Assembly (NCBI RefSeq): GCF_008838325.1
Contig: NZ_CP042829.1
Span: 558,001-622,000 of the forward strand
Direction: 5' to 3'
DNA: 64,000 nt
Origin: Tepidiforma bonchosmolovskayae
Lineage (GTDB): Bacteria; Chloroflexota; Dehalococcoidia; Tepidiformales; Tepidiformaceae
A model generated the notes under the pieces. It made no database searches. It was not told the DNA's origin and worked only from the letters and a program-made list of their open reading frames with translations. Shown piece after piece: positions 48,517-50,932 of the stretch. Each line of letters starts with the position of its first letter. The first letter of the stretch is position 1. The position numbers were made by a program, and so were the translations under genes.

Positions 48517-49413
48517 ATGACGATTCGCGAGGAGTTCACGGTCACGAGGGAGGACGGGGCGCTGGCCGGGCCGCTGCGGCAGCCGGTCAACACCTCACGG
48601 GACGCGAAGGGGTCGATTCACGACGATGCGACCGCGACGCGGCTGGGGTTCCGCGGGGGGACGGTGGCGGGGTCGATCCACATGGAGCTGTTTCCGCCGC
48701 TGCTGCGGGCGGCGTGGGGCAGGCGGTGGTTCGAACGCGGGACGCTCTCGCTCTACTTCCTGAATGCAACGACGGACCGGGAGGCCGTGCGGGCGTTCAT
48801 CCAGGAGCCGCCGGCCGGTGCGGCGGATGCGCAGGTGGAGGCGTGGGTGCTGCGCGACGACGGGATGCAGGTGGCGCAGGGCACGGCGTCAGTCGGCGAC
48901 CCGGGCGTACCGACGGCGCTGCAGGCGCGGCCGCTTGAGCGGTTCGAGCCGGGGGAGCTGCGCATCCTTGCGGGGGTGCAGAAGGGGCACCGGTTCGCGC
49001 CGGTGGACGTCCGGTGCGACCCGGCGGAGCAGGAACGGCGGCTGGCAGTGACGACGGAGCCGATGGACTGGTACCGGGGCGAGGGGTCGCCGTGGGGTGC
49101 GCCGCCGGTGCTGATCGCTCCGCTGGTGCAGATGCTGTACGCGAAGAGCCTGGCGCAGGTGCGGGGCGGATTCGGGGCGGTGGGGCTGTTCGGGGCGATC
49201 GAGGTCCGGAATGTGAACGGCCCGGCACTGGTCGGCGAGACGTACACGTGCACGGGCGAGGTGATCGCCGTGGGGCAGAGCCCCAAGACGGAGTACCTGT
49301 GGTTCGAGACGGGGCTCGACGATGCCGGGGGCCGGCGAGTGGCTGAGATGCGGATGCTGCTGCGGTTCATGAAGGCCTCGAGCAGCCTGTACCCGGAGCT
49401 GCAGCAGGGCTGA
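48517..49413 (+). CDS. MaoC-like hotdog-fold protein
   Basis: A 298-residue protein whose N-terminal half has SIHDDATATRLGFRGGTVAGSIH, the hydratase-type motif of MaoC-like hotdog proteins, and a second hotdog-like region near 200-290 (LVGETYTCTGEVIAVGQSPKTEYLWFE). Double-hotdog proteins of this type hydrate 2-enoyl-CoA or act as thioesterases. The ATG at 48517 has GGAGG upstream and a TAGTCT -10-like element about 30 bases ahead. It is followed by a 12-bp hairpin that is also the body of the candidate small RNA on the other strand. Confidence 0.75.
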   Translation: MTIREEFTVTREDGALAGPLRQPVNTSRDAKGSIHDDATATRLGFRGGTVAGSIHMELFPPLLRAAWGRRWFERGTLSLYFLNATTDREAVRAFIQEPPAGAADAQVEAWVLRDDGMQVAQGTASVGDPGVPTALQARPLERFEPGELRILAGVQKGHRFAPVDVRCDPAEQERRLAVTTEPMDWYRGEGSPWGAPPVLIAPLVQMLYAKSLAQVRGGFGAVGLFGAIEVRNVNGPALVGETYTCTGEVIAVGQSPKTEYLWFETGLDDAGGRRVAEMRMLLRFMKASSSLYPELQQG

Positions 49414-49423
49414 CGCTGCGGCA

Positions 49424-49494
49424 GGAATGGAACGGCCCCGGCCGGCGGAAGGAGGAACACCGGCCGGGGCCCCAGCCACGCCGAGGGGTTCGGC
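49424..49494 (-). ncRNA. candidate small RNA with two C-rich loops
   Basis: Minus-strand transcript predicted to start at about 49494 from the promoter at 49501-49529. Its first bases fold as GCCGA / UCGGC with loop ACCCC (49494-49480). A second hairpin has a 12-bp stem GGCCCCGGCCGG / CCGGCCGGGGCC with a 14-base loop UGUUCCUCCUUCCG (49471-49434), followed by GUUCCAUUCC. The second loop contains CCUCCUU, the anti-Shine-Dalgarno core. The layout, about 70 bases with two C-loop hairpins, recalls C-rich-loop regulatory RNAs such as the actinobacterial 6C RNA. The same stem can serve as terminator for the plus-strand hotdog gene. Not recognised as a named family. Confidence 0.55.
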
Positions 49495-49500
49495 AGCCCT

Positions 49501-49529
49501 ACTGTACCACTAGTGAGATTTCGTATCAA
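49501..49529 (-). promoter_or_regulatory. near-consensus promoter reading toward the candidate small RNA
   Basis: On the minus strand TTGATA (49529-49524) and TACAGT (49506-49501) are exactly 17 bases apart, inside the only AT-rich stretch of this gap (49500-49550). Upstream of the -35 is GGGAAAATTTCTCC (49552-49539), an A/T-rich near-palindrome that may be an UP element or operator. It points away from the LLM gene, so it does not serve that gene. Confidence 0.65.
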
Positions 49530-49602
49530 TAGGTTCCCGGAGAAATTTTCCCGCCGTCCGGGGTGAAGGGCCAGGGTGCGCCAGCCGGCAGCGGGTGACA
49601 CA

Positions 49603-49636
49603 GCACGGGCCCGGGGCGTCTGCCCCGGGCCCGTGC
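49603..49636. terminator. strong hairpin after the LLM oxidoreductase gene
   Basis: GCACGGGCCCGGGG / CCCCGGGCCCGTGC is a 14-bp perfect stem with loop CGTCTG, 21 bases past the stop of the minus-strand LLM gene. It separates that gene from the promoter of the candidate small RNA. Confidence 0.75.
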
Positions 49637-49657: not shown

Positions 49658-50932
49658 TCAGGCGCCGCCAACGCCGGCGGTGAGGGGAGAGCGGAGCGGG
49701 CGGACGGGTTCGTCTTTGGGGACGGCGCGGCGCTCGGGCGGGAGCGGCTTCGGGTACCAGCGGTCCTCGAACTCGTTGAACTTGTCACGGAGGTTGGGCA
49801 TGACCTTCTCCGCGAACATCTGGGTGTTGTAGATGGCGACGTCGCGGGGCATGGAGCCCATCTGGAGGAGGAGCATGAGGTGGCCGACGCGGAGGTTGTC
49901 GGCGAGTTCGTTGAGTTTTTCGGTGACGTAGTCGGGGCCGCCGGCGATGACGTAGCCCTGTTCGACGAGGCCTTCCCAGCTCAGGCGGGCCTTGGCGTTC
50001 TGCTGGGCCTGTTCGAACTGGGATTTGATGCCGGCCTTGACGGTGCGGAGGGTGCGGTAGCCGGGGGCGTCGGCGAAGCCGGGGAAGACGTGGAGGCAGC
50101 GGTTGTAGAAATAGTCGATGTGGGGCCAGTAGAGCTCTTTGGCCTCGGCGGCGTTATCGGCGACGCAGACGACCTGGGCGAAGCCGGCGTGGTAGGGGTT
50201 CGGCTCGACGCCCTTGTCGCGCATGCGGGCCCAGAAGCCGTCCATGATGGTCTGGGCGCGCTTGTAGCCGGAGTAGGAGAGGTAGGAGTAGAGGTAGCCC
50301 ATATCAGCGCACCACTCCCAAGTTTCGATGGAGCCGCCGCCGGGGATCCAGATGGGCGGGTTCGGCTTCTGGAGGGGGCGCGGCCAGGGGTTCATGTAGC
50401 GGATCTGGGTGTACTTGCCGTTGAAGTGGCTGACGCCCTCGTTGTGCCAGGCCTGCATGATGAGGTCGTGCGCCTCGTAGTACCGCTCGCGGAGCTGGGC
50501 CCCGGGGACGCCGTAGGCGAAGTTGGTGTCCATGCTGGTGCCGACCGGGAAGCCGGCGACGAGGCGGCCGCCGGAGAGGATATCGAGCATGGCGAACTCT
50601 TCGGCGACGCGGAGCGGCGGGTTGTAGAGGGCGATTGAGTTGCCCATGACGACGATGGCGGCGCGGTTGGTCCTGCGGGTGAGGGTGGCCGCCATGATGT
50701 TCGGGCTCGGCATGAGGCCGTAGGCGTTGGAGTGGTGCTCGTTGACGCAGATGCCGTCGAAGCCGACCTTCTCGGCGAATTCGAGTTCGTCGAGGTACTC
50801 GTGGTAGACGTGGTTGGCCTTTTCTTCGTCGAAGAGGCTGTAGTCGACGTCGACCCAGACGGAGCGGTGCTTCTGCTGGAAGTCGTCCGGCAGGTAGGGC
50901 CAGGGCATCAGATGGAACCAGTGGAACTTCAT
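49658..50932 (-). CDS. LLM-class flavin-dependent oxidoreductase
   Basis: A 424-residue luciferase-like monooxygenase. The N-terminal FHWFHLMPWPYLP, the substrate helix NEHHSNAYGLMPSPNIMAATLTRRT and LRVAEEFAMLDILSGGRLVAGFPVGTSMDTNFAYGV are family blocks; GGGSIETWEWCADMGY lies in the C-terminal barrel. It uses FMNH2 or reduced F420. Length is above the usual 330-360 because of an N-terminal insert and a C-terminal tail. The ATG has GAGGAGG nine bases upstream; a TATACT at 51006-51001 gives a leader of about 65 bases. Confidence 0.9.
   Translation of the reverse strand: MKFHWFHLMPWPYLPDDFQQKHRSVWVDVDYSLFDEEKANHVYHEYLDELEFAEKVGFDGICVNEHHSNAYGLMPSPNIMAATLTRRTNRAAIVVMGNSIALYNPPLRVAEEFAMLDILSGGRLVAGFPVGTSMDTNFAYGVPGAQLRERYYEAHDLIMQAWHNEGVSHFNGKYTQIRYMNPWPRPLQKPNPPIWIPGGGSIETWEWCADMGYLYSYLSYSGYKRAQTIMDGFWARMRDKGVEPNPYHAGFAQVVCVADNAAEAKELYWPHIDYFYNRCLHVFPGFADAPGYRTLRTVKAGIKSQFEQAQQNAKARLSWEGLVEQGYVIAGGPDYVTEKLNELADNLRVGHLMLLLQMGSMPRDVAIYNTQMFAEKVMPNLRDKFNEFEDRWYPKPLPPERRAVPKDEPVRPLRSPLTAGVGGA

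Follow-up and report, generated by a model that had tools for sequence, protein, structure and literature searches.

A putative small RNA gene of Tepidiforma with a Fur-family-type operator in its promoter and an anti-Shine-Dalgarno loop in its terminator hairpin

What occupies the 244 bp between two convergent genes of Tepidiforma bonchosmolovskayae, a hotdog-fold gene and an LLM-type gene ending at position 49658? Positions are those of the window, the whole stretch of 64,000 nucleotides that was analysed, which belongs to a chromosome assembled as a single contig of 2.75 Mb. The gap holds a unit on the minus strand in which a promoter is followed by two hairpins (Table 1). The first-pass annotation of this DNA had read the unit as a small-RNA (sRNA) gene that has a promoter to itself and displays an anti-Shine-Dalgarno loop, a reading now supported by conservation in two genera, and we consider it very likely that the sRNA gene is real. 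What the annotation overlooked is a metalloregulator-type box in the -35 region, common to the sRNA and a znu-type metal-uptake operon, and it is this shared operator that gives the sRNA its likely signal.

The near-consensus promoter TTGATA-17-TACAGT was found as annotated, at 49529-49501, and is the sole sigma-70-like match in 4 kb (shuffled sequences give a mean of 0.1). Also as annotated, two hairpins follow from the predicted start, the first with the loop ACCCC, at 49494-49480 and 49471-49434. The 5' end of the predicted sRNA, which would be about 61-70 nt long, is placed from the promoter, the +1 being predicted seven bases behind the -10 hexamer in all eight homologues. A 75-nt RNA of the minus strand folds with -47.2 kcal/mol against -33.3 in shuffles (z -4.6), beating every shuffle, while the plus strand of the same stretch folds with z -2.9. 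A separate terminator had been posited for the LLM-type gene: the GC-rich inverted repeat is indeed there, at about 49604-49636, but it lacks a T-run. Rfam 15 at gathering threshold places no family at the locus, its only match being a tRNA elsewhere in the window, and permissive thresholds yield weak, chance-level matches at the locus, headed by ar14 (RF02344). A peptide-coding role was dismissed on account of a 1-nt indel within the stem among Tepidiforma species.

Table 1. Features in and around the minus-strand unit of the gap (positions in the window).
Feature	Position	Strand	Basis or remark
Hotdog-fold gene	48517..49413	+	convergent; adjoins the sRNA in Tepidiforma only
Weak U-tract GUUCCAUUCC, 3' of the stem	49424..49433	-	sequence; homologue G011 has a true U7
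Predicted sRNA transcript, from inferred +1 (49494) to end of terminator stem	49434..49494	-	sequence and folding
Terminator hairpin, 14-bp GC stem, loop UUCCUCCUUC	49434..49471	-	stem covaries between genera
Anti-Shine-Dalgarno loop UUCCUCCUUC, proposed target-pairing seed	49448..49457	-	kept across two genera
5' hairpin GCCGA-ACCCC-UCGGC, 15 nt	49480..49494	-	sequence kept in Tepidiforma only
-10 hexamer TACAGT	49501..49506	-	17-bp spacing from -35 in 8/8 homologues
Putative Fur-family-type operator TTGATACGAAATCTCAC	49513..49529	-	overlaps -35 box and spacer
-35 hexamer TTGATA	49524..49529	-	same in 8/8 homologues
Inverted repeat behind LLM-type gene, likely its terminator	about 49604..49636	-	GC-rich; outside the stretch conserved with the sRNA

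When the 244-bp gap was used as a query against 60 relatives, the stretch with the promoter and hairpins matched four of the five other Tepidiforma species at 87-93%, and the remainder of the gap did not. All aligned Tepidiforma species share one -35 hexamer, the 17-bp spacing and the predicted +1. An alignment of five of them shows no variation, or next to none, in 59 of the 61 transcript columns, the 5' half of the sRNA being invariant. The neutral level is far lower: in the adjacent hotdog gene, a constant convergent neighbour within the genus, only 45% of the fourfold-degenerate sites are invariant in the same-genus comparison.

A covariance model built from the transcript alone (R1) gave a weak match in G011, a member of a sister genus (E 0.009), and nothing convincing outside Tepidiforma across 294 genomes of the class; weak matches at L038-L042, with neither promoter nor loop, were set aside. 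The sRNA strand of G011 reads TTGATA-17-TAGCGT, six bases, a G, then the hairpin GGGCGGCGGGCAG-UUCCUCCUUC-CUGCCCGCCGCCC and TTTTTTT. A model that includes the promoter (R2) matches G011, which was in its training set, with E 6e-20, and recovers G023, an independent second member of the sister genus, with E 7e-7; the loop of the latter is UUCCUCCUCCUUC, with a 3-nt insertion. Among the weak R2 matches, L089, L090 and L091 sit on boxes of other genes, and L088 and L092 lack an sRNA-like unit. That the unit persists in a sister genus and in four further genomes of Tepidiforma excludes a chance origin.

The comparative check suggested by the first-pass annotation, run on these relatives, found that the promoter and loop persist and that the terminator stem varies by compensatory pairs. 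Between genera 8 of 12 stem pairs are altered on both sides with 97% of cells still paired, a value from few sequences, while slid controls drop to 27-67%; the pair count rests on three sequences because the 3-nt insertion in the G023 loop was wrongly placed by MAFFT. The annotation had also compared the two C-rich loops with the design of several regulatory RNAs, but this pair of loops is not the conserved design: the C-loop of the first hairpin is kept in Tepidiforma only, and the 5' hairpins possible in the sister genus have the loops AUGGCAG and AGGU, the fold in G023 appearing in one prediction and being absent from another. What the compared sequences keep across genera is the loop, the stem pairing and the promoter; the stem sequence and the C-rich loop in the first hairpin are not universal.

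The conserved -35 block of the sRNA promoter, TTGATAnnnnATCTCA, is a Fur-family-type operator by sequence. A family-wide search for the upstream block TATTGATAnnnnATCTCA, with one mismatch allowed, found it in 12 genomes of 6 genera, against one genome for the reversed control, and several of the box matches come close to a perfect 7-1-7 palindrome (TTGATACTnAGTATCAA), an arrangement characteristic of Fur-family boxes. The asymmetrical boxes of Tepidiforma were overlooked by a palindrome search with three mismatches, and the degenerate pattern TGAKAYNNNNTMTCR was used instead. This Tepidiforma form occurs at four places in the organism's own 2.75-Mb chromosome (reversed control: none): one site lies in the sRNA promoter, two precede the sole importer gene of the ZnuA/AztC type, and the fourth falls within the rnpA coding sequence. 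All six Tepidiforma genomes contain a single ZnuA-family gene, whose promoter carries two boxes. Among relatives, boxes precede further ZnuA-family binding-protein genes (L043, L051, L053, L054), some with His/Asp-rich stretches, as well as genes for the zinc metallochaperone AztD (L090, similarly L052); the L053 gene fuses a binding-protein part to an AztD part, and at L044 two boxes are flanked by a ZnuA-type gene and, in divergent orientation, a Fur-family gene. Control of the predicted sRNA by a Fur-family protein appears highly probable from this distribution of sites.

Other genes carry the box in some of the genomes only. A CDF exporter gene, whose closest equivalog is ZitB, has it in G001, G002 and G003 and lacks it in G000, the organism's own genome, and in G004. 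Where present (L187, L199, L209, as opposed to L215 and L216), the box sits upstream of the likely -10, so positioned that the exporter could be activated, not repressed, through it. A small Crp-like regulator gene, adjoining a gene that resembles chelatase/VWA genes, is preceded by a box in G001 and G002 and by a diverged one in G004 (L177:1501, L183:1501, L206:1539), and is a possible further member of the regulon. G004 alone has a box a short way upstream of an operon for a FecCD-type permease and a FecB-like binding protein (L208:1553, L218). Also in G004 (L207, about 1700-1850), an element resembling a cobalamin riboswitch was seen by eye before a BtuC/FecCD-type permease gene.

Which metal the operator would report is addressed by the regulator and the importer. 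Of the three Fur-family paralogues in the genome, the closest to the znu-linked regulator of G013 is a 139-aa protein encoded at about 182.7 kb of the chromosome, with 46% identity; the other two reach 29% and 24%. NCBIfam cannot tell whether this regulator is a Zur or a Fur, its best named matches being Fur models, far below cut-off; a different paralogue in the genome is a more typical Fur. The products of the importer operon include a binding protein with an HDDHGHDHGEG loop and with a histidine at what we take to be the third ligand position, and a permease with a His-rich tail. The best named family of the importer is AztC (zinc), at 272 bits against a cut-off of 350, followed by MntC (manganese) at 257 bits, 15 bits less and also below cut-off. 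The AztD and CDF genes beside boxes would favour zinc and, given control by a metal, zinc is rather likely to be the one.

The best-surviving alternative keeps the same sRNA and mechanism and has iron or manganese as the signal, with a Fur/Mur-type regulator and a RyhB/FsrA-like iron-sparing or manganese RNA. It retains some probability because Zur and Fur are inseparable in NCBIfam and the FecCD-type operon of G004 has a box, which weakens a zinc-only reading; the Fur models are the regulator's best named matches, though far below cut-off, and the importer also resembles MntC. Zinc is nevertheless indicated by the matches to AztC and AztD, by the importer's His-rich loop and His-rich tail, and by a CDF exporter that is closest to ZitB, and the presence of a separate, more typical Fur paralogue also speaks against iron or manganese, which we consider unlikely overall.

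Under the preferred zinc reading, the locus would encode a trans-acting sRNA of about 61-70 nt whose promoter is covered by a Fur-family operator, and the repressor would be a Zur-like protein, most likely the 139-aa paralogue. Loaded with metal, this regulator would bind the -35 and spacer and shut the promoter, as it would that of the znu-type operon for metal import; once the metal, most likely zinc, becomes scarce, it would leave the operator and the sRNA would be made. The terminator-hairpin loop UUCCUCCUUC would then pair with ribosome-binding sites of the AAGGAGGAA type, blocking translation and so sparing metal. The sequences themselves show the architecture, its conservation, the stem covariation and the shared operator; we infer repression by the 139-aa protein, the zinc signal, the pairing and its targets, and rate the whole combination of an sRNA gene, Fur-family control, anti-Shine-Dalgarno action and a zinc signal as slightly better than evenly balanced. 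Counting against the zinc and anti-Shine-Dalgarno reading are the weak U-tract of Tepidiforma, the unselective Shine-Dalgarno pairing, the box before the FecCD-type operon of G004 and the margin of only 15 bits between the importer families.

Comparable architectures are known from iron control. IsrR of Staphylococcus is a Fur-repressed iron-sparing sRNA whose C-rich single-stranded loop regions pair with Shine-Dalgarno sequences and block translation, and the Fur-controlled FsrA of Bacillus subtilis likewise directs a C-rich motif against Shine-Dalgarno sequences (PMC9410917). The Tepidiforma sRNA would resemble IsrR in its putative Fur-family repression and in a C-rich loop that could pair with Shine-Dalgarno sequences. 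However, IsrR answers iron and has three stem-loops and a terminator, with no sequence relation shown between the two, whereas in the Tepidiforma sRNA no conserved seed is seen apart from the terminator loop itself, and a znu-type importer shares the operator. FsrA differs in responding to iron and requiring the FbpABC chaperones, and has no detectable sequence relation to the Tepidiforma sRNA; the proposed likeness is one of mode of action, and homology is not claimed. Small RNAs tied to non-iron metalloregulators include s-SodF (Nur, nickel) and RsaC (MntR, manganese) (PMC9294342, PMC3919588). Whereas s-SodF arises by processing of the sodF mRNA, from its 3' UTR, the predicted Tepidiforma sRNA has a gene to itself, complete with promoter and operator. 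RsaC answers manganese via MntR. The alphaproteobacterial sRNA ar14 scores 17.8 bits at the locus against a gathering threshold of 58.8 and comes from another phylum, with no common operator shown. It carries anti-Shine-Dalgarno motifs in hairpin loops. On the preferred reading, the sRNA would be a counterpart of RyhB, FsrA and IsrR, probably for zinc.

Cognate sRNAs are known for iron, manganese and nickel; a review from 2022 lists none for Zur and regards further metal-sparing RNAs, including one for zinc, as very likely (PMC9294342). Our search of the open-access literature found no Zur-controlled sRNA published after that review, and a literature search found no work on metal-responsive sRNAs in Chloroflexota. 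Whether the locus holds the first sRNA directly under the zinc sensor Zur, a Chloroflexota 'zinc RyhB' whose terminator loop is the anti-Shine-Dalgarno seed and which shuts off zinc-using proteins in zinc starvation, is in our estimate evenly poised. The locus is a concrete, conserved and testable candidate for a Zur sRNA in a genus with cultured species, and suggests an economical design in which a single hairpin is both terminator and target-recognition loop. If the reading is right, the sRNA would probably let these hot-spring bacteria silence selected proteins during a shortage of zinc or a similar metal.

Action of the loop on Shine-Dalgarno sequences is probable; the 10-nt UUCCUCCUUC is complementary to GAAGGAGGAA. 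The loop pairs with almost any strong Shine-Dalgarno sequence, and well with that of znuA itself. Perfect AAGGAGGAA sites number 15, 12 and 5 in three genomes and lie mostly off ribosome-binding positions. Those at ribosome-binding positions that recur in more than one species belong to a protein with a CZB zinc-binding domain and a plastocyanin-like lipoprotein, the others being an MgtE-like gene (G001) and biotin-carrier and lipoprotein genes (G000). The CZB gene has the perfect loop complement at its ribosome-binding site in G000, G001 and G004; in G003 it has AAGGAGGAT, and pairing past the Shine-Dalgarno core is not fully conserved at this gene. As candidate targets these sites are suggestive. 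About 45 bases before the start of the CZB gene, GCCGAAACGATCGGAGGA is kept in five species (L200-L204); it resembles a sigma-28-type -10 and is followed by a second GGAGG site.

A metal-regulated sRNA that instead pairs with the hotdog mRNA, binds a protein or acts through its 5' half would suit the convergent position beside the same hotdog gene throughout Tepidiforma and the invariance of a 5' half with no known role, yet the neighbours differ in the sister genus, where a VOC-type gene and a membrane-protein gene, not the hotdog gene, flank the copies of G011 and G023, and the anti-Shine-Dalgarno loop is the sole transcript element kept across genera, which leaves this reading improbable beside that of an anti-Shine-Dalgarno RNA. 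That the stem is merely a terminator, perhaps bidirectional, of the hotdog gene, with promoter and loop incidental, is very improbable indeed: the stem does follow directly on the stop codon of the hotdog gene and would form in a plus-strand RNA as well, but conservation extends to promoter, spacing and loop, the 5' hairpin does not vary within the genus, and elsewhere the unit occurs without the hotdog gene and with a U-tract on the sRNA strand. The comparison thus argues that the candidate is an sRNA gene and not merely this terminator, because it recurs beside other genes with its promoter spacing and loop, a compensatory stem and one true U-tract.

By the covariance-model and the box and loop tests, the sRNA is present in 2 of the 18 genera of the family. 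A scan for the box with the loop across 84,980 species genomes gave 53 matches. In only six of them is the loop enclosed by a stem of 9 or more pairs: three in Tepidiforma-type genomes, two in the sister genus and one on a contig of a 'Bryobacteraceae' MAG. This last contig (L124) carries sRNA, hotdog and LLM genes 99% identical to those of the window and is probably a misbinned contig of Tepidiforma.
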